From: a virus
Strand: one strand, 5' to 3'
IMG/VR virus record: IMGVR_UViG_3300032893_003200
Location: 1 to 38,342 of that record
DNA: 38,342 bases
The notes under the pieces are model-generated. The model ran no database searches. It worked only from the letters and a program-made list of their open reading frames with translations, and had not been told where the DNA came from. The translations under genes were made by a program, and so were the position numbers. This document shows, piece after piece, positions 2,951-25,376 of this stretch (position 1 is its first letter; the number at the start of each line of letters is the position of its first letter).

Positions 2951-3088
2951 ATGGCCGGCATGCCGCGGTGGCTTTGGATCCCGATCGCAGTCGGCGTCGT
3001 CATTTGGGGGAACTTCGCCTATCACCTAATCGGCGGAGTGATCCGCTACCTGCGCAATCACCCGCTGAGAGTCCGCCGCGACTTCTAG
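2951..3088 (+). CDS. Possible small membrane protein on the opposite strand (45 aa)
   Basis: A short ORF fills the 144-bp gap between the tail-tip gene and lysozyme. It has an N-terminal membrane segment (PRWLWIPIAVGVVIWGNF), a short loop and a basic tail (RYLRNHPLRVRRDF), obeying the positive-inside rule. Its TAG overlaps the TAG of the convergent gene within CTAG. No ribosome-binding site is visible and there is almost no room for a promoter, so it may instead be antisense to the lysozyme leader. If real, its place beside lysis genes suggests a lysis or membrane role. Confidence 0.4.
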   Translation: MAGMPRWLWIPIAVGVVIWGNFAYHLIGGVIRYLRNHPLRVRRDF

Positions 3089-3840
3089 TTCGCCGAGCAG
3101 AAAATCACTTTTACAAAAGCTGGCCGCGGATCAAGCGGCGTTCCCGTGAAGGTCGGCCGCGACACCGTTCCACTCGGCGTCACCGAGGACACGCCGCCGG
3201 CCGGGTTGGACGTCGAGGCTGTGATCCCGGTCGTGCTGGAGTTGTTGGTGGCCGTCGTCGACGTCGTCGACTGCGCCGCGCTGCGTAAGCTTCCGCCGGT
3301 GGATGCCGAGCCCATGAGATTCGTGCCGGTGGTGGATCCCGTCGTGCCGCCCTGCAGCTGCTCGGTGTGCGAGTGCGCGTTTTGCGTGTGATTGTGCCCG
3401 GGATCCGTGATGGTCACGGCGTGGGTGTGATTGATCACCTGCGTGATCGGATCTCCTGTGAAGGTCGGCTGCGAGATCGTGCCCGCCGGCGTGATCGTCG
3501 CGTTGCCGCCAGTGGTGCCGACGTCGCCGTGCGCGGCCAGCGTGCCTTGAATAAAAAAGCCGTCCAGCGCGGTGACCTGCGAAAAGCCCGTCGGGCACGA
3601 GGTCAGCGACAGCACGATCGCGCCCGAGGGAAGGGAAGAGCTTCCGTTCTGACAGTCGGATCCGGTGCCGCCCAGCTCGCCGTTGACGAAATGCGCGCAT
3701 TGCGTGCCTGAAACCGAAGAGACGCTCAGGTATTTTGCGTTGACGCGCTCGGCCGAAAGCGACGGACCGGCCCACACCTGCGCATAGGCACAGAGCGACG
3801 CGAGCGAAAGCAGCGGCAGGAGCAGGAGAGGGCGCTTCAT
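3085..3840 (-). CDS. Signal-peptide-bearing tail fibre tip/collar-like protein (251 aa)
   Basis: ATG at 3840 overlaps the previous stop as ATGA. Residues 1-20 (MKRPLLLLPLLSLASLCAYA) form a Sec signal peptide, likely cut before QVWAG. The rest resembles the distal part of phage fibres of the tail-collar type: CPTGF near residue 90, a GFFIQG segment, then repeated His motifs (NHTHAV, GHNHT, HSHTE). HxH motifs coordinate metal ions in T4 gp37- and lambda Stf-type tips. The end, PLDPRPAFVKVIFC, is also typical of collar domains. The mature part has four cysteines. It is the last of three fibre genes. A signal peptide on such a protein is unexpected and suggests export or an uncleaved hydrophobic start. 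Confidence 0.8.
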   Translation of the reverse strand: MKRPLLLLPLLSLASLCAYAQVWAGPSLSAERVNAKYLSVSSVSGTQCAHFVNGELGGTGSDCQNGSSSLPSGAIVLSLTSCPTGFSQVTALDGFFIQGTLAAHGDVGTTGGNATITPAGTISQPTFTGDPITQVINHTHAVTITDPGHNHTQNAHSHTEQLQGGTTGSTTGTNLMGSASTGGSLRSAAQSTTSTTATNNSSTTGITASTSNPAGGVSSVTPSGTVSRPTFTGTPLDPRPAFVKVIFCSAN

Positions 3841-6335
3841 TGGATCACGGTCCAGGCACACAGCGGCGACGACGCGCTCGACACAGTCGCCTGCAGGATC
3901 CGGACCTGGTTGGTAGAGATCGACAGCGAAGAAGAGCCGTCGATCAGATCATTGCCGAACGGCACGATGGTCGAAGAGCTGCCGTTGATGTTCTTGATGT
4001 AGATCTTCTGCCCGGTGTAGCCGCCGCAGGGTTGCAGGGTGAAATTTCCGGTCCCGAAATTCAGGATGGAGTAGACATCGGCGTCCTGCTGCAGCGGCAC
4101 GCTGGCGCTGCCGAAGACCGTTCCATTGCCGAGCCCCGAGGTCCAGTTGTAGTAAGTGAAGCTCGAAGCGGAAGTGGTGAGCACGTTCCAGCACTCGCCG
4201 GAAACGTTGTTGTAGCCGCTCGGAGTCACACCGGAAATGACGACGCAGGATCCCACCGGCGGGTTGAGCGTAGAGGTAACGGTGACGGTGTTGGTGGATT
4301 CGCTGGTCCCGGTGATCGCGGTTGCCGCCGGCGCCGCGCTGTTGTAAGTGGTCGCGCTCGACCAGTCCAGATGCCCATAGGCGCGATTCAGGCCGCGCTG
4401 AATGTACGGTGCCAGGATGTTGTTCGCTGTCCCGGTAGTGGGATGCAGTCCCGTGGAAAAGTAGGTTGTGTTGGCCGCGCAGCCATCGCAGCCGAGCAGT
4501 GGATCCGCGCCGGGATCGACCAAAAAGTCCGCGAAGACGGGCCAATAGGTGCGGATCGCGGTGTTGTAGCTGTTCTTAAACGTGTCCGCTCCGCTCCGGT
4601 CCATCATGGTCATCACGCCGCATTTGAAGCCGCGCAGGTGGCGGGCGCGACAGTAGCCGTTCAGGTAGTTGAGCGTGGTGGTGGCGCTTCCGCCCGAATC
4701 GTTCGTGCCGCCCCACATGAGAACCGCTTCGCGATTGGCTGCGGTCTGGTAGAAGGGGTCGACTGCGTTGGGAGCATCGGCCGTCAGTTGCTCGATCGTG
4801 TAGCCAGAGGCGCTCAGGTTGTAGATGTTGACCGTGGCCGGGATGCTCATCATCGCATTGGTGACGAAGCCGATTTCAGAGTCGCCATCGAGCACGTAGG
4901 TGTCGGTGGTGGATGTGCTGAGCAGGTTCAGCGGCAGTCCGCGCGCCGACATGGTGTTCTGCAGGAATTCGACGTTCGAGTTCACTTCCGCCTGCGTGAG
5001 CTGGCGGTTATAAACAACGACGTAATAGATCTGGCCCAGGTAGTACATCGCGGCCGCCGGGCATCCGCCGCCCAGGCCGCCGGCAGATCCGCCCAGCTGA
5101 AAATTCCCGCTGCTCAGCAAGCCCGTGTCGGTGCCCGACACCAGCGTCTGATTGTTGATGGCCATCGATTCGGTGCCGCCATTGCCGATTTCCCATGTCA
5201 CCACAGCCGAGCCTTGGAGCGTATAGCGCCAGGTGGAGCGAAAATTCGTCTTCCAGGTCTCGAAGTGGTAGTTCGTGTTGGCATTGGTGACATTGTGCTG
5301 ATCGTCAAGAAAGAACCGGCTGCAGTTCGAAGGAGCGCCTGGTCCGCCGGCGATGAGCGCGTTGTATTGATTCGCACCGGAAAACTGGAAAGCGGCCACG
5401 AACTGAAACGTGACGCCTGAGTTCAGGGCGGAAGGCAGACTCACGGCTCCGTTGCCGGTGAAGTTCAGGCCGCCCGTGCCGGCGATGATGGTAGGCGCGG
5501 TTCCGACGGTGCCGGTCGCGTTGTTGCCATTGCCTGAATAGTCGACCAGTGAGCCCGCACTTTCTGAGGAAAGAATGCGGTATTCAGCGAGCAGGCCGGA
5601 CTGCACGACTTGCGTCGGCACCGAAGAGGGCGCGACGCACGGATTCCCGAAGTCCTGCACTCCGACCTGAGTGCCACTCACACTAAACTTCGCGCAGTCG
5701 CCACCGGTGGGCGTCGAGCCGATCAGCGGAATTAATTTCGCCGTGGTCGACCCGTTGCCCGAGACCGGTTGATTCGCGGTGGAGTCATACGCCAAAGTGC
5801 CGGCTGCGGTGGGAGCGGCGCCCGGAGCCGAGGGCAGCACGAAGCCGTTGGTGGCCGACATGGCGCTGCCGTCGATCGTGCCCGATCCGGTCATCGTATT
5901 TGCGGCGAAGGTTTTCATGTCCCCGCCGGCGCCGCCGAACAGGCTTGCATTGATGGCCGTCGATGCGTTCAGGTAGATCGTCGCCGAGCCCGAGACGTAG
6001 CTGGTCACGCAAACCAGGAAGGTATCGAAGCCGCCGACAGCGCCCTTGTATTTGCCGGCCGCGGTGATGGTCGACTGCGCCGTGGTGCTGGTCGAGGGAG
6101 TGACCTGCGTGTTCTGCGGCGTGCCGGCGTTTGAGCCATCGCGTGCGGTCATCGCGACTTCCGGCTGCAGCGTCATCGAAAAGGTGCCGGTGACCGTGAT
6201 GCCTACCGTCGAAAGACCGGAGACCGTGATTGAGGCGCACGGAGAGGTGCTGCTCGAAATGGTGAAAGGTCCAGCCTTCGATTGCCCCCACAAAGAGGCG
6301 GCGAGAAACAGAACGGTGAATAGAACCTTGCGCAT
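3837..6335 (-). CDS. Signal-peptide-bearing tailspike with LamG-like and SGNH-hydrolase domains (832 aa)
   Basis: AAGGAG precedes the ATG at 6335. Residues 1-20 are a Sec-type signal (LFTVLFLAASLWG). Residues about 24-245 are Ser/Thr/Gly-rich fibre-like sequence. About 248-465 resembles a LamG/concanavalin-like jelly roll (LVDYSGNGNNATG, then a YYVVVYNRQLTQAEV end), usually carbohydrate binding. About 478-655 is an SGNH/GDSL hydrolase: GDS with S486, GGTND with N545, and LHPT with H631. Such spike domains remove acetyl groups from capsule or O-antigen. The Asp expected three residues before the catalytic His is Thr here, so the triad is incomplete unless another acid serves. There are fourteen cysteines. 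The C-terminus (about 660-832) is beta-rich. It probably recognises and trims host surface polysaccharide. Confidence 0.82.
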   Translation of the reverse strand: MRKVLFTVLFLAASLWGQSKAGPFTISSSTSPCASITVSGLSTVGITVTGTFSMTLQPEVAMTARDGSNAGTPQNTQVTPSTSTTAQSTITAAGKYKGAVGGFDTFLVCVTSYVSGSATIYLNASTAINASLFGGAGGDMKTFAANTMTGSGTIDGSAMSATNGFVLPSAPGAAPTAAGTLAYDSTANQPVSGNGSTTAKLIPLIGSTPTGGDCAKFSVSGTQVGVQDFGNPCVAPSSVPTQVVQSGLLAEYRILSSESAGSLVDYSGNGNNATGTVGTAPTIIAGTGGLNFTGNGAVSLPSALNSGVTFQFVAAFQFSGANQYNALIAGGPGAPSNCSRFFLDDQHNVTNANTNYHFETWKTNFRSTWRYTLQGSAVVTWEIGNGGTESMAINNQTLVSGTDTGLLSSGNFQLGGSAGGLGGGCPAAAMYYLGQIYYVVVYNRQLTQAEVNSNVEFLQNTMSARGLPLNLLSTSTTDTYVLDGDSEIGFVTNAMMSIPATVNIYNLSASGYTIEQLTADAPNAVDPFYQTAANREAVLMWGGTNDSGGSATTTLNYLNGYCRARHLRGFKCGVMTMMDRSGADTFKNSYNTAIRTYWPVFADFLVDPGADPLLGCDGCAANTTYFSTGLHPTTGTANNILAPYIQRGLNRAYGHLDWSSATTYNSAAPAATAITGTSESTNTVTVTSTLNPPVGSCVVISGVTPSGYNNVSGECWNVLTTSASSFTYYNWTSGLGNGTVFGSASVPLQQDADVYSILNFGTGNFTLQPCGGYTGQKIYIKNINGSSSTIVPFGNDLIDGSSSLSISTNQVRILQATVSSASSPLCAWTVIQ

Positions 6336-6347
6336 AAAGCTCCTTTC

Positions 6348-7667
6348 CTAGTTGTGATGGCCGTGGCAATCGAAAGCCGTGAAGCCACCATCGTTGGAGA
6401 AACCTAACACAGTGATCGAGATGACAAAGGTTCCGGTGCTCTTCGACGAGATCCAATAGGCCGCGCTGCTGGTGTCGAGGCCGGTCGGAGTGCAATTCAC
6501 GAAATAGCTGTTATCCGCGAAGGACGAGCCCCACGTACCAGTCACCGTGCAAGGGCTGCCTCCAGATGCTTTACAGCCACTCGTCGATACGTACTGATCG
6601 ACAGGACACGAGAAGGCGTGCGTTGACGTGTTGTAGGTCAAAGTGCCCGAGCACAGCGAAGTCGCCGACGGATCCGCCGAGGTGCGGCCCACGGGCAATT
6701 GATCGTTGGTTAAAGTGACGCCGGTTTCGGCCGAGCCGTCGCCCTGGTTCAGCGTCATCGAGTGCGCAGTGGCTCCGGCATTCACGTTACCCGAGTTGCC
6801 GAGCGCAACCGTCTGCCCGTTGTAGGTGAGTGAAGAGTGCTGCAGCGCGGAGTTCGGGATCAGCCCGGTGCAGGTCGACGTCAGAATCTTGTTGGCGTCG
6901 GTGCAGACCACCGAGCTCGCCGTCAGCCCGGAATCCAGGATTGATCCCGCCGTGATCGCCGGCCCGGTACCGGTGATGCACGGGCCAGTCGCGGTCGCAT
7001 TGGTGCCGTTGTAGACGAAGGCCTGCGTGGTGGTCACGCCGGCGCCGCTTGCGATGGTGCAGCCGCCGACGGTGTTGGCCGGCCAGGTGAAGGTGTGCCC
7101 GCCCGACCCATCCTGCGTGATCTGGAAATAGATCAGCCCGGGCGGCGTCACGCCGACAAACGTCATGGGCTGTGCGGTGGCATCGCCGGTGAGGGTCAGC
7201 TCGAACAGCTGGATCTGCGCCGCATCCTGAAACGATGGCGTCGGGGAATAAGGCACGACCGTGGTGAGCACCGTGGATCCGCCGCCGATGCCGTCGACCG
7301 TGTAGAGCGTCGACCCGGTGGCGCAGTGCGTGCCGCCGGCGGAAGCGACTTTGAAGGTGTAGGCGAGGCCTGCCTGCAGCCAGATGCCATTCGAGCCCGT
7401 GCCCACGAAGCCACCGGCGGTGAGAATCACGGGATTGGTGTTCTGCACCGTGCCCGTGTAATCGGTATAAGTGGCCAGCGGCGTGGTGGTCGCGACTTTG
7501 TAGGTGAAGACGCAGCCAAACGACAGCGGGCGGCCGGAATTGTCGAAAAACTGCAGTTTCGGCACCGGAGCCAGCACGACGGCCGTCTGTGATGAGGCGA
7601 AGCAGCACAGCAGCCCGACAGCGCACAGCAGAGGCAAGGCGAAGCGAGAAGGTTTAGATCGTGGCAA
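6348..7667 (-). CDS. Signal-peptide-bearing tail fibre with P22-tailspike-type head-binding domain (439 aa)
   Basis: The start is TTG at 7667, chosen because GGGGAG lies eight to nine bases upstream. Residues 1-27 form a basic then hydrophobic signal (FALPLLCAVGLLCCFA). About 35-110 matches the virion-attachment domain of podovirus fibres: PKLQFFDNSGRPL, then TTTPLATYTDYTGTVQNTNPVILTA-like phrases split by a short loop. That domain normally begins the protein and docks on the portal/tail hub in the cytoplasm, so a signal in front is odd. The remainder is Thr/Gly/Ser-rich beta structure with twelve mature-region cysteines, many in short CxnC loops, and ends in His-rich CHGHH. It is the first and virion-proximal gene of the fibre cluster. 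Repeated GTAACC motifs lie upstream (7710-7749). Confidence 0.82.
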   Translation of the reverse strand: MPRSKPSRFALPLLCAVGLLCCFASSQTAVVLAPVPKLQFFDNSGRPLSFGCVFTYKVATTTPLATYTDYTGTVQNTNPVILTAGGFVGTGSNGIWLQAGLAYTFKVASAGGTHCATGSTLYTVDGIGGGSTVLTTVVPYSPTPSFQDAAQIQLFELTLTGDATAQPMTFVGVTPPGLIYFQITQDGSGGHTFTWPANTVGGCTIASGAGVTTTQAFVYNGTNATATGPCITGTGPAITAGSILDSGLTASSVVCTDANKILTSTCTGLIPNSALQHSSLTYNGQTVALGNSGNVNAGATAHSMTLNQGDGSAETGVTLTNDQLPVGRTSADPSATSLCSGTLTYNTSTHAFSCPVDQYVSTSGCKASGGSPCTVTGTWGSSFADNSYFVNCTPTGLDTSSAAYWISSKSTGTFVISITVLGFSNDGGFTAFDCHGHHN

Positions 7668-7798: not shown

Positions 7799-8158
7799 AT
7801 GATCTACCAATACAAAGAAGGTCGCGTCACCTGGCACGAGCTTGAAAACGGCCGCGAGATCGTAAAATCAGTTCCCTTGCCCATCGACGAATCGCTCAGC
7901 CTTGGCGAGCGCGTCATCTTCGCCATGCTGCTGCACTGGCTCGAAAATGAAACCCACGCCCGCGCCCTGGTGAAGGCCACGGTGAAGATGTTTCCCAAGA
8001 AACTCGGTCGCGGCGAGGGCGGCGAATTTCGCATCGATGTGGACGAGTTGCGCGATGCCGTGTTGCTGGCCTTCAGCCGCGCGCTGGATCAGGTTTCCGA
8101 AACGCCGCGCCTCGAATACATGGGCGGCCAGCGGCGCGACACTCTGCGCATCAATTAG
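7799..8158 (+). CDS. Hypothetical plus-strand protein inside the late region (119 aa)
   Basis: No family recognised. TTGGAGC just before the ATG gives a close ribosome-binding site. The protein starts with a strand-rich part (MIYQYKEGRVTWHELENG), followed by a helical part with basic and acidic patches, without a signal peptide or membrane segment and without Cys motifs. It ends with a four-base overlap on the convergent virion gene at 8155. It is isolated on the opposite strand with its own repeat-containing promoter gap, so it probably has separate timing. It could be a regulator or a moron gene (a gene expressed independently of the phage programme). Confidence 0.7.
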   Translation: MIYQYKEGRVTWHELENGREIVKSVPLPIDESLSLGERVIFAMLLHWLENETHARALVKATVKMFPKKLGRGEGGEFRIDVDELRDAVLLAFSRALDQVSETPRLEYMGGQRRDTLRIN

Positions 8159-9552
8159 CGCGCCGTTCCTTTCGCCCGATAGGGCCGCGCCCGCACTCCC
8201 TGGTCGAGCACGGTTTCGCCTTTGGGACTGCGCGCCACGATGACGTCGTACGGTCCGGCCACAGCGTCGACAGCGTCGGCTCCGAACAGTGGAATCTCCT
8301 GCCCGCTCCGGGTGTCGATCCGGTAGCGTTTCAGCCCTTGCGCCTTTTCCGATGCCACCCGATTGATGGCTTCCTGCGAGGCGGCGCTTTCTCCCGAAGC
8401 ATTGGTCGCGACCGGTTGCGGAGCTTCCGCGGCGGGCCGCGCTGCCATTTTCCGCGCCCGCACGGCATCGAGCGATTTCTGCAGCAGGTCGGTGAGGTCT
8501 TCTTCCGGAGCTGGGACGGCCGCTTCTTCCGGCTGGCTGGCGTACTGGCGCAGGCGTTCCAGGATCGGATCCGCCGCCGGCGGCGCAGTTGCTTCTGGCG
8601 GGGCTGCCGCGGCGACTTGCTGCCGGGCTGCGATGACGTCGGAAAATTCCGGTGCGCCGGTGGCCGGATCCAGAACGATCGTGCGGGGCGGAATCTTGCC
8701 CAGCGCCGCGGACTGCTGAAGCGGTTGTGCGGTCGCGGCCCGGGGTGCGGCTTTCGGCGCAGGCCTCGCGCCCGTGTGTTCATCCATGCCGCCGGCGAAG
8801 GGTTTGTTTTCGCTGGTAGCGTCCAGCTCCTTCGCGGGTTTGCGAGCTGGTTCGCCGGCGTAGTCTCTGTTCTCTCCGGTCGCGTCCAGTTCGGCGGCGG
8901 CTTCGGCGGGCGCTTCTTCCGTTAGCTTCGAAGCAATCTTGCCAGCTTTTTGTGCTACACGCAGCGCATGCGCCCCGCGTGGCGAAATCACTCCGACCAG
9001 ATCAGGATCGAGGCTTTCTCCGACCCCGGTCGCTACTTTTCCGGCTGCACGCAGCACGTTGCGCGCCGATGGAATTGCTTTCGCTACAGCGGGCACCGCT
9101 CTGCCCGCGCCTTCGGTGGCCAGCGCGGTCAGTGCCTGTCCTGCGCCCTGGCCCGCGGTTTCCTGCGCAACTTTGAGATAAGTGCCGGTCGGGTCAGCCG
9201 AGGAGTTGATGTCATGGATGGCGCCGACAATTTGCGTTGCGTCCTCGGCGGTGTGCCCGATGCCGCGCAAGGTGCGATAGAGAGGAAGAGCGGCAGGACT
9301 GAGCGCACTCACTACTTTTTCCGTTTTGTCTTGCGGCGGAGCTGCGAGCGAGCTCCACGTTCCCTTGATTGCATCGCGAACGCCTCGGCCGATGGACTGC
9401 AATCCCGATTCGGTGGCGTGCGTGTAGCTGTCGAGCGGGATCTCGCGATCGAGGATGCCGGGCTGCGGCTGCGACTGCGCCGCATGAGCTTCTTCGACCG
9501 GCGTCCACTGCGCCGTGTTTTCATCAACTGGCGTCCAGGCGGAGGCGGCCAT
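8155..9552 (-). CDS. Internal virion/DNA-ejection protein, gp16 position (465 aa)
   Basis: Assigned by position: last of three large Ala/Gln-rich proteins after gp10- and p32-like genes, where P22 has its ejection protein gp16. The sequence is low-complexity and Ala/Pro-rich. Near the N-terminus, WTPVDENTAQWTPVEE repeats a WTPV module. A helical amphipathic part (about 40-200) follows, then a long Ala/Pro/Glu linker containing two related ELDATxEN copies around 220-250. A structured C-terminal end (about 410-465, RYRIDTRSGQEIPLFG) closes it. There is no peptidase or transglycosylase motif. Ejection proteins leave the virion with the DNA and form a conduit across the envelope. Confidence 0.6.
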   Translation of the reverse strand: MAASAWTPVDENTAQWTPVEEAHAAQSQPQPGILDREIPLDSYTHATESGLQSIGRGVRDAIKGTWSSLAAPPQDKTEKVVSALSPAALPLYRTLRGIGHTAEDATQIVGAIHDINSSADPTGTYLKVAQETAGQGAGQALTALATEGAGRAVPAVAKAIPSARNVLRAAGKVATGVGESLDPDLVGVISPRGAHALRVAQKAGKIASKLTEEAPAEAAAELDATGENRDYAGEPARKPAKELDATSENKPFAGGMDEHTGARPAPKAAPRAATAQPLQQSAALGKIPPRTIVLDPATGAPEFSDVIAARQQVAAAAPPEATAPPAADPILERLRQYASQPEEAAVPAPEEDLTDLLQKSLDAVRARKMAARPAAEAPQPVATNASGESAASQEAINRVASEKAQGLKRYRIDTRSGQEIPLFGADAVDAVAGPYDVIVARSPKGETVLDQGVRARPYRAKGTAR

Positions 9553-11088
9553 TTATTGTCTCTGTTCTTGTTTCCAGCCTTGGGGCAGGGGAGTTCCGGC
9601 GGGAGCCTGGTGCAATTTGCCTTGCGGATCGCGCGCGTAGATCACACCGCTGGTTGCTGCTCCACTCTTGCCGTTGTCGCTGGCCTTTTTCCCGGGCAGC
9701 CGCTTCTGAATGTCCGCGATCTGGTCCTGATAGCTCTGGTGGCGGTTGGCCATGTCCTGCTTGAGGATCTGCGCCGCGGAATAGATTTGCTTCAGCGAGG
9801 CATTCGGCCCGATCAGCTGCTCGACTTCGTGGCGCGCGGAGTCGGACAAAACTCCGGAGGCATTGGAAGAGTTGAGCACCTTCGCAATCTCCGTGAGTGC
9901 CGTGGTGCGGGCGGCGTTGAAAGCAGCCTGGTCCTTGCCGCCGGCCAGCTCCGCGGCTCGGCGCAGAGGCATGTTCACCAGCGGTGAGCCGAAATCGACG
10001 ACGTCTTTCGCCGTGTTCAGGAAGGTGTCGAGGTTCTTGCCGGCGGTGTTCTCGAATGCCGTCACCTGGTCGAAGTTTTTCTGCAGCGCCTCGAGAGATT
10101 TCTTGTTGGAGGCATATTCTGCGGTGCCTTCCGACAGCGAGCCGGGATACAGCTCGGCCGCGCGGTTCATGATCTTGTGGTTCTGCGCCAGGCCTGCGGC
10201 GCCGCGGCCGCCTGGCGGCAGCTTGCCCGTCGAGTGGTTGTACTCGGCCGCCTGGTCGATCGCGCCCTGGTCCATGCCGCCGCCGGCCGCGTTGGCCACC
10301 GCGATCTGCGCCAGGGGCGTCTGCTTCGCTTTCCACGCCAGAAAATCGCTCGCGCCCTTGCCGGGATTTTTCTTCAGCCAGTCGGCGAGCTCGGCTTTGC
10401 TCGGGTCTTCGAGCGGGCCGCCAGGCAACTCTGCCTGCAGTCGTTGCGCGGTGGTCTGTGCTCCGGTGACCTTGGCCTGCGCTTCCTGTTCCTTGGCCGC
10501 GGTCTCGCGGTCCTTGCGCGCCTCCTCGACGATGGCCGAGTGCAGGCGGATCGCGGGCAAATGCTGCGAGAAGATGTCATCGCCGGGATATTGCGTCGGT
10601 TCGTTGTTCACGTTCACGCCGGCCGCGGCCAGGCGCTGCAGGCCTTCCTGGTACACCTGCTGCTTCTGTTCTGCGGGTGCCTGCGTGACGGCATCGTGCA
10701 CGCCGGCGATAAGATCGGCTTTGCGCTGCTCTTGTGCGAATTGTTCGTCAGACAGCGATGCCAGGTTGCGCCGCTGCTGGATCATGCCCTGCTGCGCTTG
10801 CAGTGCGGCCGAGCCGGATCCGCCGTTCGCGACCAGCTTCTTCGGCAGATCGTTGATCGAGTCTTTCTCCGGGTCGAAGCCGGCGATGGTGCGGGTGAGC
10901 GCGTCCTGGTCCTTCATCTGCTGGGCGCGGATCTGGTTCTGCTGCTGCTGCGCCTGCATTTCGAGGCCGGCCTGCTGCGCCTGCTGTTTGAGCTGGGCCG
11001 CGCGCTGAAATTCCTGCAGCGAGTCGTCGTAACCGCGCTGCCCGCTCGCGATGTCTGCAACAATGTTCGGTGCCGGTACGGTTCCCAT
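9553..11088 (-). CDS. Internal virion/DNA-ejection protein, gp20 position (511 aa)
   Basis: A large, mostly helical protein between the p32-like protein and the 465-aa protein, where P22 encodes gp20. The first 60 residues are Gln/Ala-rich coiled coil. Another helical Glu/Gln/Lys stretch is at about 120-225. A more globular C-terminal half (about 270-440) contains FENTAGKNLDTFL and LNSSNASGVLSDSARHEVEQ, followed by a Lys-rich tail and a short module ending PLPQGWKQEQ. Phrases such as LSDSARHEVEQLIGPNASL recur in internal virion proteins of soil podophages. No enzymatic motif is seen. The adjoining genes abut without gaps, implying a single late transcript. Confidence 0.6.
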   Translation of the reverse strand: MGTVPAPNIVADIASGQRGYDDSLQEFQRAAQLKQQAQQAGLEMQAQQQQNQIRAQQMKDQDALTRTIAGFDPEKDSINDLPKKLVANGGSGSAALQAQQGMIQQRRNLASLSDEQFAQEQRKADLIAGVHDAVTQAPAEQKQQVYQEGLQRLAAAGVNVNNEPTQYPGDDIFSQHLPAIRLHSAIVEEARKDRETAAKEQEAQAKVTGAQTTAQRLQAELPGGPLEDPSKAELADWLKKNPGKGASDFLAWKAKQTPLAQIAVANAAGGGMDQGAIDQAAEYNHSTGKLPPGGRGAAGLAQNHKIMNRAAELYPGSLSEGTAEYASNKKSLEALQKNFDQVTAFENTAGKNLDTFLNTAKDVVDFGSPLVNMPLRRAAELAGGKDQAAFNAARTTALTEIAKVLNSSNASGVLSDSARHEVEQLIGPNASLKQIYSAAQILKQDMANRHQSYQDQIADIQKRLPGKKASDNGKSGAATSGVIYARDPQGKLHQAPAGTPLPQGWKQEQRQ

Positions 11089-11835
11089 TTAGATGAACGC
11101 TCCTCCCGCGAGAGAGCTGAGCACGTCGCCGAATCCGCCGCCGCCCTGCAGCCCCTCGAAGATCGATCCCGCGGCGCCGCCGGCGCCGCCGAGCATGCCC
11201 TGGTAAGCCTGGTTCTTTCCCAGGTAGCCGGAGGCGCGGGCTGCGGCCGCGTTGTTGATCTGCTGCGCGATCGCCTGCGCCGACGTCAGATCGATGTTTG
11301 CGGTGTTGCCCGCGGTCGTCAGATTGGCGTTGGCCAGCTGGCCGGTGGAGTTCTCGCCAAGACCGGTCGCCTGCAGCAGCGGATTCACGTTCGCCTGGTA
11401 GGTGCTCAGCGCGTTGTTGTAGGCGTTCTCGTACTGCTGGGAGGCTAGGCCTTGCCCGAATTGTTCGAGCGCCGTGCCGGTGTTGCCCGAGAACAGCGTT
11501 CCGTTCGCCGCCGCGTTCTGATCGATCGCGCGCGTCCCCTGCTCCAGCGCGAACTTGTATTCGGGCGTGTTGGCGACGTCGTTTGGATTCGGCGCAGTGA
11601 AGCCCGAGGCGAGAATGTCGGCGAGATGATTCGCCGTCGTGGACCCGAGCGCCTGGTAAGGCTGCTCCGCCGTGGTGATGTTGCCGAGCGCGGTCTCTTG
11701 CGCCTTGTTGGCCGCGGTCTGGTTCTGCTCGATTGTTTTCTGCGCCTGCTGCGCGCCCTGGACTTCGGCGTTGGCCGCCTTGCCCGCGGCGTTGGCGCCT
11801 AAAATCCCACCGACGATGTTCGAGACGAAGCTCAT
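11089..11835 (-). CDS. DNA-transfer protein p32/P22 gp7-like (248 aa)
   Basis: Resembles p32 DNA-transfer proteins. It has a glycine-rich hydrophobic N-terminus (MSFVSNIVGGILGANAAG), a long Gln/Ala helix, then the block TPEYKFALEQGTRAIDQNAA. This is followed by GTLFSGNTGTALEQFGQGLA, the family's most recognisable stretch, and QQYENAYNNAL. The tail is Gly-rich. In P22 the homologous gp7 is packaged inside the capsid and released with DNA to help it cross the cell envelope. Its place just after the gp14-like gene and before two large internal proteins reproduces the P22 order. Confidence 0.8.
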   Translation of the reverse strand: MSFVSNIVGGILGANAAGKAANAEVQGAQQAQKTIEQNQTAANKAQETALGNITTAEQPYQALGSTTANHLADILASGFTAPNPNDVANTPEYKFALEQGTRAIDQNAAANGTLFSGNTGTALEQFGQGLASQQYENAYNNALSTYQANVNPLLQATGLGENSTGQLANANLTTAGNTANIDLTSAQAIAQQINNAAAARASGYLGKNQAYQGMLGGAGGAAGSIFEGLQGGGGFGDVLSSLAGGAFI

Positions 11836-16714: not shown

Positions 16715-17953
16715 TTATGCTCCCAACAGCGCAACCGCGCAGTTGTCCTGGTACAAGTTGCCGAATCCGCAGACGGTGTCGAATCTGTGGATCTGCATGG
16801 AGTGCACCGGATCCCAGGCTTTGACGAAACGCACCGGGATGCCGGTGAGCTTGTCCTCCGCCTGCGACCGCGCCTCAACCGCCTTCGGCAAATAGAAGCG
16901 CATGCCGACGATGGCGAACGAGTACTTGGTGAGGGCCAGGCCGACGGTGCCGGTGGCTCCGTTCGGATTGGGCGTTCCGGGGAACAGCGTCAAAGCCGCG
17001 CCGTTGGCGGGCAGGGCATCGACGTTCTGGTACTGCGTACCCGGTCCGTAGATCGCGGGCAGGATGGTGATGGTGTCCGCGCCTCCGGTCAGCGTGAAGT
17101 CCTGCGTGGCCGTGAAGGTCATCGGAGTCAGCGGTCCAGGAGTGCGCCGCGTTCTCGGGTTGACCAGGTTCACGTTCGCGATCGAGAACTTGTCGCCCTG
17201 CTTGATGGTGTCGTTCAGCGTGCCGGTGATGACGAGCGAGGATCCGCTCTGGCCCGCACCGGTCACTGTGACCGCTCCCGCCCATGTGCCGGCGGTGTGC
17301 GAATAGAGCGACTGCTCTTCAAACACGCGGAAAGCTTTCAGCCGTCCCAGCGAGCCTTCCTTGAAGGCCTCGTCGATCTCATCCGACGGGTTGAACAGCG
17401 ACGTCACCGGCGTATTGATCGAGTTGACCTGCATGGAGGACGAGATCAGTGCGGCGCGATTGCGATCGGGCGGGCACGCCTTCTGCAACAGCTTCTGGCG
17501 GGCCTGGTCGAGAAACACAATCGATGTCGGATCGGTGCCGAGCGTGCCGACGATCTGGCTGGTGTTGTTTTTGGCGAACAGCGCGGCGCGGGAATCGATC
17601 TCCTGCGACAGCTGCACGCCGGCCGGTTCCAAGTACTGCTCGCGGATTTCTTCCTCGGTGCGCTCCGCCTTGACCGCGGCTTCGTAATCGTCCCATTGGA
17701 AGTCGATGCCGAACGGCTGGTCGAGCGAGATGGTGGTCGAAATCCGATTGATGCCTTGCGGGTTGTATCCGAGACCGTCCCGGATGGTGAACTGTTGCGG
17801 GAACTTGACCTGAATCGTCGTCCCTACAGCGAACGTCTTTTCATAGTCCTTCTCCCAGTCTGTGTTGAAAATGGACGCAACCTTGTTGGCGTTCATCAGG
17901 TTGCGCAACACTTCCATGGAGATCCACGAAGTGTTTAGAAACTGGTTGGCCAT
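16715..17953 (-). CDS. Major capsid (coat) protein, P22 gp5-like (412 aa)
   Basis: Matches P22-type coat proteins in length (P22 gp5 has 430), position and features. The start (MANQFLNTSWISMEVLRNLMN) carries the N-arm helix, followed by FNTDWEKDYEKTFAVGTTIQVKFP. Residues about 85-130 form the long helix (DDYEAAVKAERTEEEIREQYL). The ALISSSMQVNSINTPVTSLF region follows, then an inserted beta domain at about 225-330 (GAVTVTGAGQSGSSLVITG, then PMTFTATQDFTLTGG), equivalent to the I-domain. The C-terminus is the A-domain-like AIVGMRFYLPKAVEARSQAE. It should assemble with the scaffold encoded just upstream into an HK97-fold procapsid. There is no signal peptide. Confidence 0.9.
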   Translation of the reverse strand: MANQFLNTSWISMEVLRNLMNANKVASIFNTDWEKDYEKTFAVGTTIQVKFPQQFTIRDGLGYNPQGINRISTTISLDQPFGIDFQWDDYEAAVKAERTEEEIREQYLEPAGVQLSQEIDSRAALFAKNNTSQIVGTLGTDPTSIVFLDQARQKLLQKACPPDRNRAALISSSMQVNSINTPVTSLFNPSDEIDEAFKEGSLGRLKAFRVFEEQSLYSHTAGTWAGAVTVTGAGQSGSSLVITGTLNDTIKQGDKFSIANVNLVNPRTRRTPGPLTPMTFTATQDFTLTGGADTITILPAIYGPGTQYQNVDALPANGAALTLFPGTPNPNGATGTVGLALTKYSFAIVGMRFYLPKAVEARSQAEDKLTGIPVRFVKAWDPVHSMQIHRFDTVCGFGNLYQDNCAVALLGA

Positions 17954-17956: not shown

Positions 17957-19075
17957 TTATTTCCTTGATCTGCGCACGGCCAGCAGGCGGGGATCGCGCG
18001 AGTTTTGCTCGCGGTTATACGCCGACTGGTCCTGGTGCTCGATGGCATCGTCGACCGTGTCCTTCGCCACGGTTCCCTTGCCGGAAACCTGGTGCGGCGG
18101 CCGCGGTGCCTGGGTAACGGAGCGGGCAGAAGAGGAAGCCGAACGAGCGCCGGAAACCTTCATCTCGATTTCGGAAAGCGCGTAGGCGGCGTCGATCTGG
18201 TTCATCCCGTTGATCTGGTCGAGCACGTCCGGGTTTTGACCGAGGTAATACAGAACCTTCGGCCCGGCCGGGCGGCTCAGGATGAACACGTCGGCGACGG
18301 AGCCCTGCTTGATCGGCAAATCGGGATTCAGCGCGACTTCCTGGAAGTCGGGCATGTCCTTCATCACCGCCTCGCAGCGCCTGGCGAATTCGCGATTGAC
18401 GGTTTCAACAGCCTGCTGCTGCGCGCGTTCCCGCTCGGTCCTGGCGTTCGTCTCCTGAAATTTCCGGATAGCCTCGTCCTGTAGCCACTGGTCCTTGGCC
18501 GCTTCATAATCGGCATAGGTCGCGTACTTGGGCTTTCCGGTTTTCTCGTCGACGTCGTCGATCTTGGGCCGGGGTGTTGCCTTGTCGACCGCTGCAGATT
18601 GCGAGGCCTGCTGGGTTTCACGCTGTGCGGACGTTTCGGTACGAGCTTCCTGCCGGCCTTCGACCCGGGCGAGTTTCTCGCGCAGTTCGCGGTTCTCGCG
18701 CGAAAGCTTGGCCCAGCGCGACTCGCCCTGCTGGCGGGTGCGCTGCTGCGCCTGCTCTCGGGATCTCTCCTGCTCAGTGGCGGCTTGCGAGGCCGCGCGA
18801 TCGCCATCCTGTGCGCCGGATGAGGCGGAATCCTGCTGGCCGCGCCGAGCGCCGTCCTGATCGCTATCCTGATCGGCGTCCTGCTCGGCGAGCTGCTGTT
18901 CGTATTCCTGCTGCTCTTCCTCGTCGGACTTGTCTGCTTGGGACCGGTCTTCGCTGGCGGCAAACTTGCCCGTTTTGCGATATTCGCGATCGGTGGGCAG
19001 AAATCCCGAGTCGAGCGCCTGCTCGATCGAGGAAGCAGACGCTACCGAGGCGTCCTGAGTGACGGTGGTTTTCAT
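17957..19075 (-). CDS. Scaffolding protein (P22 gp8 position, 372 aa)
   Basis: Very hydrophilic, mostly helical and disordered. An N-terminal part (SSIEQALDSGFLPTDREYRK) is followed by a long Gln/Asp/Glu/Arg-rich region (about 45-150) and a helical stretch with RELREKLARVEGRQE. The segment PKYATYADYEAAKDQWLQDE and a C-terminal half with DLPIKQGSVADVFILSRP, then LYYLGQNPDVLDQINGMN, are typical of phage scaffolds of this group. The basic end (RDPRLLAVRRSRK) may bind coat. It lies between portal and coat as in P22. Scaffolds guide coat assembly, then leave. AAGGAAAA precedes the ATG. Confidence 0.82.
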   Translation of the reverse strand: MKTTVTQDASVASASSIEQALDSGFLPTDREYRKTGKFAASEDRSQADKSDEEEQQEYEQQLAEQDADQDSDQDGARRGQQDSASSGAQDGDRAASQAATEQERSREQAQQRTRQQGESRWAKLSRENRELREKLARVEGRQEARTETSAQRETQQASQSAAVDKATPRPKIDDVDEKTGKPKYATYADYEAAKDQWLQDEAIRKFQETNARTERERAQQQAVETVNREFARRCEAVMKDMPDFQEVALNPDLPIKQGSVADVFILSRPAGPKVLYYLGQNPDVLDQINGMNQIDAAYALSEIEMKVSGARSASSSARSVTQAPRPPHQVSGKGTVAKDTVDDAIEHQDQSAYNREQNSRDPRLLAVRRSRK

Positions 19076-19137
19076 GAGGATTTTCCTTGGTGGTGCGAGT
19101 GCCGGATGTGACGCGGGACCGGCGGCGCGATGGAAAT

Positions 19138-21294
19138 CTAAACTTGGGACTGGTCGTTAGGCTGCTGCTGATCCGGCTGCGCCGCCGCCAAAGTAGCCGC
19201 GTGCTGCTGCGCCTGGTGCTGCATGGCAAACTCGTGCGCGGCGTTGTGGTTCTCGATCCAGAATTCCTTGTACATCTGCTGCCGCTCGGCGTCGTCCTGC
19301 GCCTTGGTCTGAATTTCCGCCAGCAGCACCTTGATGTCGTTTGCCAATTGCGATCGCAGGTTTTCGTTCTCCTGCTTCATCTGCTCGATCGTCACCTTGG
19401 TCTGCTGCTCCAGCACGCGGCCGGCGCGGTCCTGGTGCAGGGCGGCGTTTTCCTGCTGCAGTGCGACGAGCTGCGACTGCATCTGCTGAATCGCGGCCTG
19501 CGCTTCGGGCGGCAGGTTCGAGGGATCCGGCGGGTCAAAGACGTCGGCGATCTGCTTGCCGATCGGACCGAGCGTCGGCCGCATGCGGATCCCGAGAGCG
19601 AGCACTTTTGCCTGCGGCGTGCCCGGCTGCGGCAGGTTCGCCATGTTCTCGATCAGCTGGTCGACAAATGAGCTTTGCTCGTCGCGCTCGGAGTCGTAGC
19701 TCGGCCCGGTCGAGATGGTGACGTCGAATTCGCCCTTGGCGGTGTGGACGTGTTCCGGATCGAGATCCTGCACTTCGTACGCGCCCTGCTCGTCGATCGG
19801 GTGCGACGTCTGTCCCACGATCTGCGTGAGCTTGCGCTTGCCGTCGGGCAGCGCCATCGGCATCTGCCGCTCGGTGTCATAGATGGGCGTGATCAGCTGG
19901 TTGATTTGCCAGCCCAGGTTGTGCAGGAAGCAATTCTCATAGCGATCGATGAAGTGGAAGCTGCCGAGCGACTCCATGTCCTCGACTTTTTCCAGCGCCA
20001 CGCCGGACTTCTCATTGCGCCGGGCCGCGGCCGTCGGCAGCGGCGTGATGCCCATCGAGGACTGCAGCGCACGCGCAGCCGCGTCCTTCGCGCCTTCCCA
20101 CTCGCTGAAGGCGACCTGATATTGCGTGAAGGTCGGCGAGGGAGGGAACTGCCCGGTCTGCGCGAAGATCTCGGCCCAATCCCACTGCAGGTAAGCGAAG
20201 CCTTCGTCGGTGCAGTTCTCCCATGCCTCCTTGTCGCTTTCAAACGTGCCTTTCGGGCCGACCCACGGCACCTTGGGAACTTTCTTCGCGACTTCTGCCT
20301 CGGAGCTGGCCAGATAGTCGTACATCATCTGCGGATCCCGGGCGAAGCGGACCATGGAGAGCAGCTCGCGCTTCGATTGCCCGCCGACCATGACCCAGCG
20401 CTCCGGGCCGAAGCAGGCGATGATGGGAATGCGCGTGCCCGCCCACTCGATCTCGTCGAGGATCTCGACGCCGTTGGTCAGATACTGCATCACATAAGGC
20501 GTTTCGATGGTGCGCTCGCGCTTCACCTCACCGCGCACCAGCTCCTTCGCCTGCTTCCACTCGTCCTCGGTGAAAATCTGCAGTCCTTCCTTGGTTTCGA
20601 CCAGCAGTAGTTGCGAGCGCTTGTGCTCTACGCGCCAGTTTTCGGCGACCTGCACGAAGTGGTCGGTGATCCAGTCGGAGACGTGATCCTCGCCCATGAT
20701 CTCGCCCGCAAAATCGGTGATGCGGGCTTTGGGATACTTGCGCTTGAAATCGCGCTTCGGGATCCGGTCGAGCAGGAAGGCTTCGGGCACGTCGGAGGCA
20801 TCGGGCTGCTTGTAGTGCGGGGAAAACAGCACGGTGTCGGGATTCATCACCGGCTTGATGACGATCGACTGGTTGAAGCTCTCGTCGTCGTCGTACTCAG
20901 TCGCCAGGCGAGCGAAGCCGTAGCTGCGCTCGATCATGCACTCGAAGGCGTAGAGGTAAATGGGCTGCGCCTGCGAGCGCTCCTCGATGCCCATGATCAG
21001 CGCGCCGCGGCGCTCGGCGTCCTGGTCGCTGGCGCCGTCGCCTTTGGGCTGCGCCTTGATGGCGCGCTTCGACTTGCGCACGTTGCCGATCACCTGGTTC
21101 AGGAACTGGTTGATCTGGTCGAAGTGGATGCAGGGGCGGCCCTTGGTCTCGCGCGACTGGCGGTCTTCCGGATCCCACGGTCCTTCGACCGAAATGGCCT
21201 GCATGTCGGCCGAGGCTTCCTTGCGGATCTCGTCCCAGTCGTTGCGGTAGTCGCGGAAGCTCTCGCGGATCTCTTTAGTGGAGGGAGTGGGCAT
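19138..21294 (-). CDS. Portal protein (P22 gp1-like, 718 aa)
   Basis: Length fits P22 portal (725). Family landmarks are the N-terminal SFRDYRNDWDEIRKEASADM, a GRPCIHFDQINQFLNQVIGN block, KRAIKAQPKGDG, and the YAFECMIERSYGFARLATEY helix. Later come FGPERWVMVGGQSKRELLS and RFARDPQMMYDYLASSEAEV, with KVPWVGPKGTFE. The C-terminal third (about 590-718) is a Gln-rich coiled coil (QAAIQQMQSQLVALQQENA), like the barrel of the P22 portal. The dodecameric ring is the packaging gate and the tail attachment point. It starts 13 bases from a possible divergent small gene. Confidence 0.92.
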   Translation of the reverse strand: MPTPSTKEIRESFRDYRNDWDEIRKEASADMQAISVEGPWDPEDRQSRETKGRPCIHFDQINQFLNQVIGNVRKSKRAIKAQPKGDGASDQDAERRGALIMGIEERSQAQPIYLYAFECMIERSYGFARLATEYDDDESFNQSIVIKPVMNPDTVLFSPHYKQPDASDVPEAFLLDRIPKRDFKRKYPKARITDFAGEIMGEDHVSDWITDHFVQVAENWRVEHKRSQLLLVETKEGLQIFTEDEWKQAKELVRGEVKRERTIETPYVMQYLTNGVEILDEIEWAGTRIPIIACFGPERWVMVGGQSKRELLSMVRFARDPQMMYDYLASSEAEVAKKVPKVPWVGPKGTFESDKEAWENCTDEGFAYLQWDWAEIFAQTGQFPPSPTFTQYQVAFSEWEGAKDAAARALQSSMGITPLPTAAARRNEKSGVALEKVEDMESLGSFHFIDRYENCFLHNLGWQINQLITPIYDTERQMPMALPDGKRKLTQIVGQTSHPIDEQGAYEVQDLDPEHVHTAKGEFDVTISTGPSYDSERDEQSSFVDQLIENMANLPQPGTPQAKVLALGIRMRPTLGPIGKQIADVFDPPDPSNLPPEAQAAIQQMQSQLVALQQENAALHQDRAGRVLEQQTKVTIEQMKQENENLRSQLANDIKVLLAEIQTKAQDDAERQQMYKEFWIENHNAAHEFAMQHQAQQHAATLAAAQPDQQQPNDQSQV

Positions 21295-22164: not shown

Positions 22165-22166
22165 GG

Positions 22167-22598: not shown

Positions 22599-22606
22599 GT
22601 GCGCGT

Positions 22607-22693
22607 TCAGTGCCGCCGCGGCGGCTCACAGCCATAGACCACAAAAAACATGTTGAGCCCGTAATAAACGCCGGCGACGTTGGTCATCTGCAT
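22607..22693 (-). CDS. Candidate 28-aa membrane peptide coupled by TGATG
   Basis: The gap between two minus genes holds an ORF whose ATG overlaps the upstream stop as TGATG, the arrangement seen in translationally coupled genes. The peptide has a hydrophobic aromatic core (VAGVYYGLNMFFVVYGC) and a basic end (EPPRRH), suggesting a single membrane-spanning peptide. It is too short for family assignment. Confidence 0.45.
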   Translation of the reverse strand: MQMTNVAGVYYGLNMFFVVYGCEPPRRH

Positions 22694-22998
22694 CAGCGTT
22701 CTCCCCCGCTCATCGTCGGGCGCCTCAGCTGCGCCTGTTCCCAGCGCTGCCACGCCTGGTCAAGTTCGAGATCGGCGGCGTCGCCGGGATCCTGCTGCTC
22801 GTCCGGATCCGGATCGGAGTAGCAGCGCACCGTGATGCTGTCGGCGTCGGAACTGATCTCCTGCCACGAGTGCCCGTCGGCGCAGTGGTGCGAGGGGTAC
22901 AGCGTTTCCGTGGGCGCGTCGGTCGAATAGTCGGTCCGGTTCTCGGGCACCAGGCAAATCGCCAGCCACACCGCCATCACCGCAAAAACGAAACGCAC
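22693..22998 (-). CDS. N-terminally membrane-anchored hypothetical protein (101 aa)
   Basis: Residues 1-17 (MRFVFAVMAVWLAICLV) form a signal-anchor. No clear signal-peptidase site follows, so it may stay in the inner membrane with the rest outside. The outer part is acidic (DPDPDEQQDPGDAADLELDQ), with two cysteines (HHC, VRC) and aromatic residues. The protein ends in a helical Gln/Arg stretch. Family unknown. It is the eighth product of this window with an N-terminal export-type segment and follows three secreted-type genes directly, by two-base spacing. Confidence 0.65.
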   Translation of the reverse strand: MRFVFAVMAVWLAICLVPENRTDYSTDAPTETLYPSHHCADGHSWQEISSDADSITVRCYSDPDPDEQQDPGDAADLELDQAWQRWEQAQLRRPTMSGGER

Positions 22999-23000
22999 CG

Positions 23001-23705
23001 TCAGTTCACTCCCAGCGTCAGCAGCCCGGTCTGCGTGCCCTGCGGGGGATAGATTTCGACCGCCGTCGTAACCCAGCTCGAACTAACATTTGTCGTCGTG
23101 ATGGTCAGCACACTTGAGCCGATGGTGGTGCCGGTGTTGTCGATCAGTGCGACCGCATTGGAGTTGCCGCCCCCTCCGGCCTGACTCTGGCGCAGATTCC
23201 CGGTCGTCGACGAGTATGAGGTCACGTTCGCCCCCATCGAGTAACCATTCACAACCAAGCTGTTTGTTTTCGTGGTCGTGTAGGTGTAGGTGGGGTTGGT
23301 TGAAGAGCTGCTGAAAATAGAACTGGTGCCGACAAATCCCGCTTGCCCCGAGTACTCTTCGCACGCAATAGAGGCCTTGCGTGAAGTAGTCCATGAAAAA
23401 TGATAGGTACTGGCCCCACTGACCACGGTTCCGTATGCGATGGAAAAATTGACGCTGGTGACGGTGGTCGAGATGGAAAGCGCATTCGAGTTGTTGTCGG
23501 CGGCGGTGATGTTTGAAACGCCTCCAGCGGTGACCAGCGCGCAGACCATCGCGTTCCCTGCGGTCGGAGAAAAACTGCTGCTAGCCACGGTTGTGGCCAG
23601 CGACGCGCCGGTCGTGCCTGTCGCGCCTCCCACGGGAGCGATCGCGCCCCAGGCCACGCTCGTCAGCGCAACAAACAGGCAAAGTTTGAGCAGAATCTTG
23701 CGCAT
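23001..23705 (-). CDS. Signal-peptide-bearing beta-rich protein (234 aa)
   Basis: ATG at 23705 was chosen because a longer frame would only add unlikely sequence overlapping the next gene. Residues 1-20 (KILLKLCLFVALTSVAWG) are a Sec signal; cleavage may be after WG or AIA. The mature protein is a Ser/Thr/Asn/Gly-rich beta sandwich. FSPTAGNAMVCALVTAGG, YHFSWTTSRKASIACEEYSG and a C-terminal WVTTAVEIYP strand resemble phage adhesion or host surface jelly rolls of a kind common in Acidobacteria and their viruses. Two mature cysteines could pair. It lies in a run of four export-type genes between terL and portal. Confidence 0.7.
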   Translation of the reverse strand: MRKILLKLCLFVALTSVAWGAIAPVGGATGTTGASLATTVASSSFSPTAGNAMVCALVTAGGVSNITAADNNSNALSISTTVTSVNFSIAYGTVVSGASTYHFSWTTSRKASIACEEYSGQAGFVGTSSIFSSSSTNPTYTYTTTKTNSLVVNGYSMGANVTSYSSTTGNLRQSQAGGGGNSNAVALIDNTGTTIGSSVLTITTTNVSSSWVTTAVEIYPPQGTQTGLLTLGVN

Positions 23706-23710
23706 CTTCG

Positions 23711-24346
23711 TCAGTTGCAGCCCGTCACATCGCACTGCTTCCCGGTGAAGCCGCCGGGCGCGAGTTGCTGCAGCTGGTAGCTGAACTGCAGCGCCTGGAA
23801 GAACTGCTGGATGGTGGCCGCGGTGGAAGAATTCGAGAAGGCGTGCGTCTGTTCGTACTCGACCCACGTGCCGGCCGCGATCGCCGCGTTTACCTGCGTC
23901 TGCAGCGCGCCCGAAAACTGACCGGAGCAGTTCGAGGTCGCGCCCGAGATCGGAATGCCGCTGGTCACAAATACAAACAGGCAAGCCGAAACGTTCAGCT
24001 GTCCGAAGCTCGGCGTCGAGCCCTTCACCATGAACACCGGAGCGGGCTGCGAGGTGCCGCACGATGAAGAACAGTTCGCCATCGTGGCCGAGACCACGGT
24101 GTAGGTGGTCGACGTCGGAACGGTGGAGGCGGCGCCGCAGATGTTGTCGGCCGAGACCGACGAGCTCAGGATGCAGAAGCCGGGATCGTTCAGCGGGATC
24201 GAGTGCGCCGAAGCCGTGGTCACGGTGCAGGTGCCAGCCGAACAGGTCACGGAAGAAATGGTGACCGGCGTGGCCAGCGTGGCGTGCGCCGGCAAAGACA
24301 CGATTGCCGATAAAAACAGAAGCAAAAGCAGGACGCGCTTAGTCAT
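23711..24346 (-). CDS. Signal-peptide-bearing Cys-rich protein (211 aa)
   Basis: GGAG nine bases before ATG 24346 decides the start over the in-frame ATG at 24361. Residues 1-21 (TKRVLLLLLFLSAIVSLP, then AHA) are a strong Sec signal, cut before TLATP. The first mature part (VTISSVTCSAGTCTVTTASA) with AHSIPLNDPGFCILSS looks like an adhesin-type beta domain. Ten cysteines occur in the mature region, many in C-x2-4-C pairs, including KQCDVTGC near the end. This is unusual for a phage cytoplasmic protein and fits oxidative folding outside the cytoplasm. The C-terminal third is helical (ATIQQFFQALQFSYQLQQLA). Family unknown. Confidence 0.72.
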   Translation of the reverse strand: MTKRVLLLLLFLSAIVSLPAHATLATPVTISSVTCSAGTCTVTTASAHSIPLNDPGFCILSSSVSADNICGAASTVPTSTTYTVVSATMANCSSSCGTSQPAPVFMVKGSTPSFGQLNVSACLFVFVTSGIPISGATSNCSGQFSGALQTQVNAAIAAGTWVEYEQTHAFSNSSTAATIQQFFQALQFSYQLQQLAPGGFTGKQCDVTGCN

Positions 24347-25376
24347 AGCGAATTTCTCCAAAGACGCCCGCGGCGGCGTTGGTGTTGTCGGTCGAGGTCG
24401 AGCCGCCCGTGATGCAATAGCCGATGCCGGTCGAGTAGTTCACCGGGTAGGTCTGGTTCGAGACGATGCCGCCCACCAGGCCGGAAGCTGCGCCAGGCGG
24501 AACCGGGATCGAGCGGATGAAGCCGGTCGCGGAGGAGCAGGTGGGCGCGGACGCTGTGTTATAGAGGCGCAGGTAGTACACCGTTGTCGTCGTGTTGTAG
24601 ACGTCGAAGCCGTAAAGATTTCCCGCCGAGCCCTTGCACGAGGTCGCGTTGGTCGAAGCCGTCGACAGGATGTTGCAGGCCGAAAGCGCGGTCGCCGATG
24701 TCGCGCCCGGCGTGGGCGTGGTCAGCCAGGGCGTGGTATTCGCCGTGTTCCCCGGCTGCACCGTCCACGTGCCGGATTGAGAGACGGCCGGCGTGTTGGT
24801 GATGAAGGCATTGACGCCTGGCACCTTCACTGCGCCCGGCGAGGTGCCATAGTTCGCCATGGCCCCTAAAACGACCCCGCCCAGCGATTCCAGGTCGATT
24901 TGGGCCGCGAAAACGCTCCCGGTGGGGTTGACGCCCGTCCACGCCTGCTGGTTTCCAGCGACGTTCAGCCCGGCCAGGCAGGCCTGCGCCGGCACCGCGG
25001 CGCCGGTGTTCGAGGCGCAGGGGTTGGTGGCGGAAATCGAGCCCGTGATGGGCAGGGGATTTGTGGCCGAGACTGCGGTCCACTTGAATGTGGAGGTGTT
25101 GTAGTAGTAAACGCCCGCCGATGCCGGCCCGGACTGCCCGTGAGCGTGTTCGACCACCAGCAGGAGCAAAAGCAACAGCGCGATCACGGCGAGCAGGATC
25201 CGGCTCATGGGATCGTGGCGGTGATTGACGTGCACGATGGTGGGCGGATGCAGCGGCGCGGACTCAGGTTCGTTTTTGATGGTGTTTTCCGGCGCCTCTT
25301 TGGCTGTTTCGGTCCGAACTGGCGCCTGAACCATCGTCTCGCAGTGGTTTCGGGCACGGATGTGAAACGGAGGCAT
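24339..25376 (-). CDS. Membrane-anchored or secreted fibre-like protein (345 aa; 289 aa from internal start)
   Basis: ATG at 25376 follows the previous stop immediately. This gives a 56-residue hydrophilic lead, then a very hydrophobic run (ILLAVIALLLLLLLVV) at about 60-75. An in-frame ATG at 25208 would remove the lead and leave a classical Sec signal ending AHG before QSGPA. No ribosome-binding site decides between them. From the long start, the product would be a type II membrane protein. The mature part is Thr/Ser/Asn-rich beta structure with six cysteines (NPC, QAC, SAC, TSC, PTC, GYC). The phrases WTAVSATNPLPITG and YYLRLYNTASAPTCSS resemble host-range or decoration proteins. It heads the run of export-type genes. 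Confidence 0.68.
   Translation of the reverse strand: MPPFHIRARNHCETMVQAPVRTETAKEAPENTIKNEPESAPLHPPTIVHVNHRHDPMSRILLAVIALLLLLLLVVEHAHGQSGPASAGVYYYNTSTFKWTAVSATNPLPITGSISATNPCASNTGAAVPAQACLAGLNVAGNQQAWTGVNPTGSVFAAQIDLESLGGVVLGAMANYGTSPGAVKVPGVNAFITNTPAVSQSGTWTVQPGNTANTTPWLTTPTPGATSATALSACNILSTASTNATSCKGSAGNLYGFDVYNTTTTVYYLRLYNTASAPTCSSATGFIRSIPVPPGAASGLVGGIVSNQTYPVNYSTGIGYCITGGSTSTDNTNAAAGVFGEIRYD

Follow-up and report, generated by a model that had tools for sequence, protein, structure and literature searches.

Predicted Sec export and disulfide bonding of tailspike, fibre and decoration-like proteins in a family of P22-like phages

The window, i.e., the whole stretch of DNA analysed here, is a virus contig of 38,342 bases from a phage family of soil and water related to P22, in which export signals are found on the presumed outer proteins (decoration protein, tailspikes and fibres) and on none of the core ones. 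At the level of sequence, Sec export of this outer set with oxidative folding is nearly certain, an inference made without data on the periplasm or on N-terminal processing. We also lean, with less assurance, towards the view that this lineage builds its virion in two compartments, the outer set being exported and oxidised and then joined to the rest at or after lysis.

The late genes of the window are all located on the minus strand, in the order terminase region, portal, scaffold, coat, the 15732-16703 gene, a gene in the gp4 position, a gp10-like gene, a gp7-like gene, two more ejection-type genes, three fibre-type genes and the phage lysozyme. This gene order is common to P22-like podoviruses such as P22, Sf6, Rhodoferax phage P26218 and Xanthomonas phage PBR31, which also have in common homologous portal, scaffold, coat, gp10 and gp7 proteins and the tailspike head-binding domain (7eeq). 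The P22-type portal, scaffold, coat and gp10 are all encoded in the late operon of the window, and an integrase is encoded in the genome. On the basis of this gene content, and without information on particle morphology, we infer that the window is a P22-like podovirus. The core genes and the controls are the following:

19138-21294, minus strand: P22-like portal (phrog_156), without signal
17957-19075, minus strand: scaffold (phrog_8865), without signal
16715-17953, minus strand: major coat protein (phrog_283), without signal; negative control
12650-14110, minus strand: gp10-like head closure protein (phrog_578), without signal
8155-11835, minus strand: three ejection-type genes (gp7-like, phrog_598, and two more), with no cysteine and no signal in the window
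2516-2941, minus strand: cytoplasmic phage lysozyme (PF00959), without signal
25893-26918, minus strand: cysteine-rich beta-helix-like protein, non-exported, 9 cysteines; internal control

The original prediction proposed seven Sec-type signals plus an eighth protein with a signal-anchor. The start positions, the N-termini and the mature cysteine counts (4, 14, 12, 4, 2, 10 and 6, plus 2) were all reproduced exactly on recomputation. Signals were scored with our own rule-based n-h-c predictor, not with SignalP or DeepTMHMM, and six of the eight N-termini (3085, 3837, 6348, 15732, 23001 and 23711) were classified as Sec signals. Thus, the claim held for six proteins. The signal of 24339-25376 is ambiguous, since the internal ATG at 25208 has no clear Shine-Dalgarno sequence and 41-57 in-frame residues lie ahead of it, and the anchor of 22693-22998 held only in part, being borderline in the predictor. 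The products concerned are:

3085-3840, minus strand: small fibre/collar-like protein, predicted export; 4 mature cysteines
3837-6335, minus strand: 832-aa fibre/spike, predicted export; 14 mature cysteines, weak GDSL/SGNH esterase match
6348-7667, minus strand: tailspike/fibre, predicted export; Sec signal followed by a P22/Pam1-type head-binding domain, 12 mature cysteines
15732-16703, minus strand: decoration-like protein, gene directly after the coat gene; Sec signal MTNKNFFASVAAVLLTVALFAVPPASA/QTIL, 4 mature cysteines
22693-22998, minus strand: small protein with an N-terminal hydrophobic anchor, uncertain; 2 cysteines outside the anchor
23001-23705, minus strand: accessory protein, predicted export; signal MRKILLKLCLFVALTSVAWG, 2 mature cysteines
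23711-24346, minus strand: accessory protein, predicted export; strong signal MTKRVLLLLLFLSAIVSLPAHA, 10 mature cysteines
24339-25376, minus strand: accessory protein, export uncertain; signal- or anchor-like segment at the internal ATG 25208, 6 cysteines after it

Good Shine-Dalgarno sequences precede 3837, 6348 (a TTG start), 15732 and 23711. Mis-called starts as a source of the signals were rejected by considering all possible starts and the control phages, with the exception of 24339-25376.

A search of IMG/VR with the coat protein yielded 41 related loci, and 21 records were analysed in full or for the greater part. The portal, coat, scaffold and gp10 families of these relatives contained no signal according to the rule-based predictor. 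Using a permissive setting on ORFs of at least 150 aa, signals were found in 104 of 624 products of the family (16.7%) versus 13 of 343 (3.8%) in a control set of 13 P22-like phages.

The gene that follows the coat gene provides the most uniform case. Its product carries a Sec signal in 20 of the 21 family members, the sole exception (G001) having a signal-like stretch that holds one charged residue. These proteins share 28-65% identity with the window protein, the mean identity being 37% in the signal and 45% in the mature part. The signal thus diverges faster than the mature part and yet retains its pattern, suggesting that the n-h-c pattern is kept by selection. The cysteine number is even in 21/21, and extra cysteines in the mature part arrive in twos. 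The AlphaFold model of 15732-16703 is all-beta (pLDDT 78.6), and its best fold match in the PDB is a capsid chain of cyanophage A4 (9jwb_Z, E 5e-5), with a TM-score of only 0.33 normalised by query length and 0.51 by target length. No match was found in 50,697 annotated phage records, nor any convincing sequence match in the PDB. The protein resembles a capsid protein, and a decoration role, inferred from the fold match and the gene position, is a possibility.

The 6348-7667 gene encodes a protein in which a docking domain comes immediately after the signal. The P22-type docking domain proposed in the original prediction held for this protein: the profile of its family hits 7eeq, a tailspike head-binding domain (E 0.003), as well as the tail spike chains of 9vyg (E 0.03), and the protein itself matches phrog_26190 (8.6e-6). 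P22/Pam1-type tailspikes are expected to fold in the cytoplasm and to have no signal peptide, and 6348-7667 departs from this in having a Sec-type signal and paired cysteines. Within its family, the predictor recognised a signal in 13 of 17 members, and the other four have hydrophobic N-termini by eye; including one further divergent member, a signal or a signal-like hydrophobic N-terminus is present in 18/18. Most of the genes behind the homologues of 6348-7667, which encode unrelated bodies, likewise begin with signals.

In PBR31, DSL-LC05 and ctn9Y15 the head-binding domain begins at or near Met1 and has neither signal nor cysteine pair, unlike that of the window. In the alignment with PBR31, the first residue of the window tailspike beyond the predicted AQ cleavage corresponds to Met1 of its PBR31 counterpart. 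No signal was found in the tailspikes of P22 and Sf6. The head-binding domain of 6348-7667 holds an extra cysteine pair (C52 and C115), the second of which sits in a six-residue insertion that is missing from the signal-less relatives. Of the 80 loci found to encode this domain, 26 combine the signal with both cysteines and 46 lack all of these, with few exceptions, such as L129 and L139, which have a signal without the pair; four more loci have both cysteines and hydrophobic N-termini that were missed by the predictor, giving a total of 30. On the poorly resolved tree of the domain, the split between signal and no signal needs only two state changes, and therefore the 80 loci are not independent events and represent an old, stable division. 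The exported form is not limited to the close coat clade, and the more distant phages with it that were examined all encode relatives of the gp10 or gp7 of the window.

The cysteine number of the tailspike family is even in 18/18, and three cysteine pairs (columns 249/276, 309/340 and 582/667) are jointly present or absent. The AlphaFold model of the tailspike is poor (pLDDT 45), and thus the evidence for pairing comes from counts and covariation, not from distances.

As for the two other fibre-type genes, the 3837-6335 protein and its homologue in G008 both have a signal and 14 cysteines; the SGNH domain previously assigned to it is supported only weakly (PF13472, E 0.0041, under the Pfam cutoff). 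The homologues of 3085-3840 have a signal in 3/3 and contain 4, 4 and 2 mature cysteines, and the collar assignment for this protein found no confirmation in Pfam or PHROGs. Between the terminase and portal genes, which adjoin in P22, the window has a gene block (22693-25697) in which most products bear signals. This block has no homologues in the 21 relatives, and those of 23001-23705 and 23711-24346 are absent among them.

The parity of the cysteines, counted after the signal, was analysed in cysteine-containing proteins that are complete and no shorter than 120 aa. The number was even in 60 of 64 signal-bearing proteins, with counts up to 38, versus 111 of 260 (43%) signal-less ones, and in 28 of 30 when each homology cluster was given one vote. 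A replicate on loci outside the first set showed even numbers in 20/25 signal-bearing proteins versus 37/81 others. Related sequences are not independent, and the p-values of these tests are only indicative. Cysteine content was 2.0% in the signal-bearing proteins versus 0.84% in other proteins of the same genomes. The beta-helix protein, which had been described as non-exported, does contain the nine cysteines previously counted, and its signal-less family varies freely in cysteine number (7, 8, 8, 8, 9, 9, 9, 9 and 10).

Even cysteine numbers could in principle arise from an oxidising host cytoplasm or from composition, with the signals appearing by chance. Disulfide-rich cytoplasm is known from some hyperthermophiles. 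This explanation, for which no support was found, can be practically ruled out, because in the remaining proteins of these genomes a parity bias is lacking and the cysteine content is lower, and because the cysteine-rich beta-helix family has mixed parity. The results for the signal-less proteins, for the beta-helix family and for the replicate set led us to reject both chance parity and an oxidising cytoplasm. The earlier reading of export with disulfide bonding is therefore supported by three sequence tests, i.e., the signals are kept in diverged homologues, the even-cysteine bias is limited to signal-bearing proteins, and cysteines are gained and lost in pairs.

Two other explanations accept the hydrophobic N-termini and dispute their use. 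They might be uncleaved elements of the virion, serving for example as a membrane anchor during entry or as a link to the inner membrane while the particle is assembled. The long n-regions of several fibre-family signals and the anchor-like appearance of 22693 and 24339 would favour this possibility, which we nevertheless regard as very improbable: cleavage motifs of the small-x-small-Q type are common in the signal-bearing proteins (the signal peptidase I-like motif [AVST]x[AG]Q occurs in 45 of 72 of them versus 38 of 398 other proteins), the predicted mature N-termini match the signal-less homologue, and the even, paired cysteines indicate an oxidising compartment. Alternatively, internal starts might yield signal-less copies for the virion while the full-length product is exported for another purpose. 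Several genes do offer alternative candidate starts close to the signal; however, as the cysteines are paired throughout the mature protein, selection seems to act on the exported form, and no conserved internal start was noticed, although no systematic search was made. Such a dual localisation seems hardly probable.

In the two-compartment model that we favour, the coat, scaffold, portal, head-completion and ejection proteins would remain in the cytoplasm and form a DNA-filled head with a tail stub. The decoration-like protein, the tailspike, and further fibres and enzymes would be made as preproteins that pass through Sec and lose their signal to signal peptidase I, and would acquire their disulfide-bonded fold in the periplasm. 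Holin and lysozyme would then open the cell, so that the freed heads could meet the finished parts and the head-binding domain attach. The lysozyme gene (2516-2941) is a conventional lysis gene, downstream of the exported fibre genes in the late operon. That the outer-set proteins are virion parts is inferred from docking domain homology, the fold match and gene position, without virion data.

The main rival to post-lysis joining is surface display in the lysogen, in which the exported proteins would stay unassembled, released or on the cell surface, and would alter the envelope, prevent superinfection or hide receptors, as a form of lysogenic conversion. In its favour, the phage encodes an integrase, a number of the exported genes are located away from the tail module (22693-25376), and phage-encoded exported surface proteins are known. 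An example is lambda Lom, which has a signal peptide (PMC12309495) and is an outer-membrane protein of the lysogen without a virion docking domain, unlike the exported tailspike. Against it, the exported tailspike retains its conserved head-binding domain and is the only protein with this domain found in each relative, so that its absence would leave these phages devoid of this type of tailspike; moreover, the gene of the decoration-like protein is located behind the coat gene in the relatives, and this protein resembles a capsid protein. For these reasons, we consider surface display unlikely. Among the three uses put forward in the original prediction (joining particles after lysis, decorating the lysogen surface or mimicking host surface proteins), post-lysis joining fits best and is the likeliest, incorporation itself being only inferred, since there is no virion or periplasm experiment.

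No precedent for an exported tailspike or decoration protein was found in the open-access literature searched or in the phage collection; the papers yielded only exported endolysins and Lom-like proteins. The endolysins (Lys44 of fOg44 and the SAR endolysin of P1, the latter under disulfide control) are tailed-phage late proteins that use Sec (PMC6116005), but they are lysis enzymes and not virion parts. Filamentous phages have virion proteins with Sec signals (Inovirus pIII and pVIII), with disulfides in pIII. They are extruded through the membrane without lysis, whereas the window is a tailed dsDNA phage, and an inovirus was rejected given the coat, portal and lysozyme genes present. Acetobacter phage phiAX1 (LC644973; L095), which is P22-like, has two proteins with Sec-like signals between gp4 and gp10 (L095:17120-18085 and about 18194-20014, with 4 and 6 mature cysteines), whose homology to the window proteins is not demonstrated. 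In the paper that describes it, virion proteomics is absent and the prophage is predicted as incomplete (PMC8566455). This phage, a mitomycin-inducible prophage of Acetobacter sp. ATCC 21760, has a cultured host.

Tailed-phage virions are taken as built entirely in the cytoplasm, and export of their outer parts, if true, would change that. It would also explain how such phages get disulfide-hardened fibres, and would make the timing of the last assembly step, as well as a possible action of exported fibres on neighbouring cells before lysis, testable questions. With the paired-cysteine test, metagenomes might also be screened at low cost for further exported virion proteins.

A contig of the family (L100, JAHFRL010000053.1), which also encodes an exported coat-neighbour protein with 4 cysteines, lies within a groundwater Betaproteobacteria MAG. 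It is probably a free phage contig, and a search of 300 genomes of the order of that MAG gave just distant matches on small contigs. Small genes between gp4 and gp10 at several loci encode a twin-arginine-like leader (RRxFL, then GRVWSFPxKIV or similar) and run opposite to the late operon:

L066:17839-18312, minus strand: twin-arginine-like-leader gene
L066:18309-18743, minus strand: twin-arginine-like-leader gene
L052:5484-5918, minus strand: twin-arginine-like-leader gene
L078:10166-10657, minus strand: twin-arginine-like-leader gene
L082:12148-12468, plus strand: twin-arginine-like-leader gene

In four of these five genes, short stretches of 31-61 aa show an unexplained similarity (35-42% identity, E 7e-6 to 6e-3) to the coat protein, each time to another part of it. 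Finally, the window encodes at 858-1187 (minus strand) an Acb2/Tad1 hairpin-domain protein (PF24729, E 1.7e-13), likely a counter-defence sponge against cyclic-nucleotide signalling.
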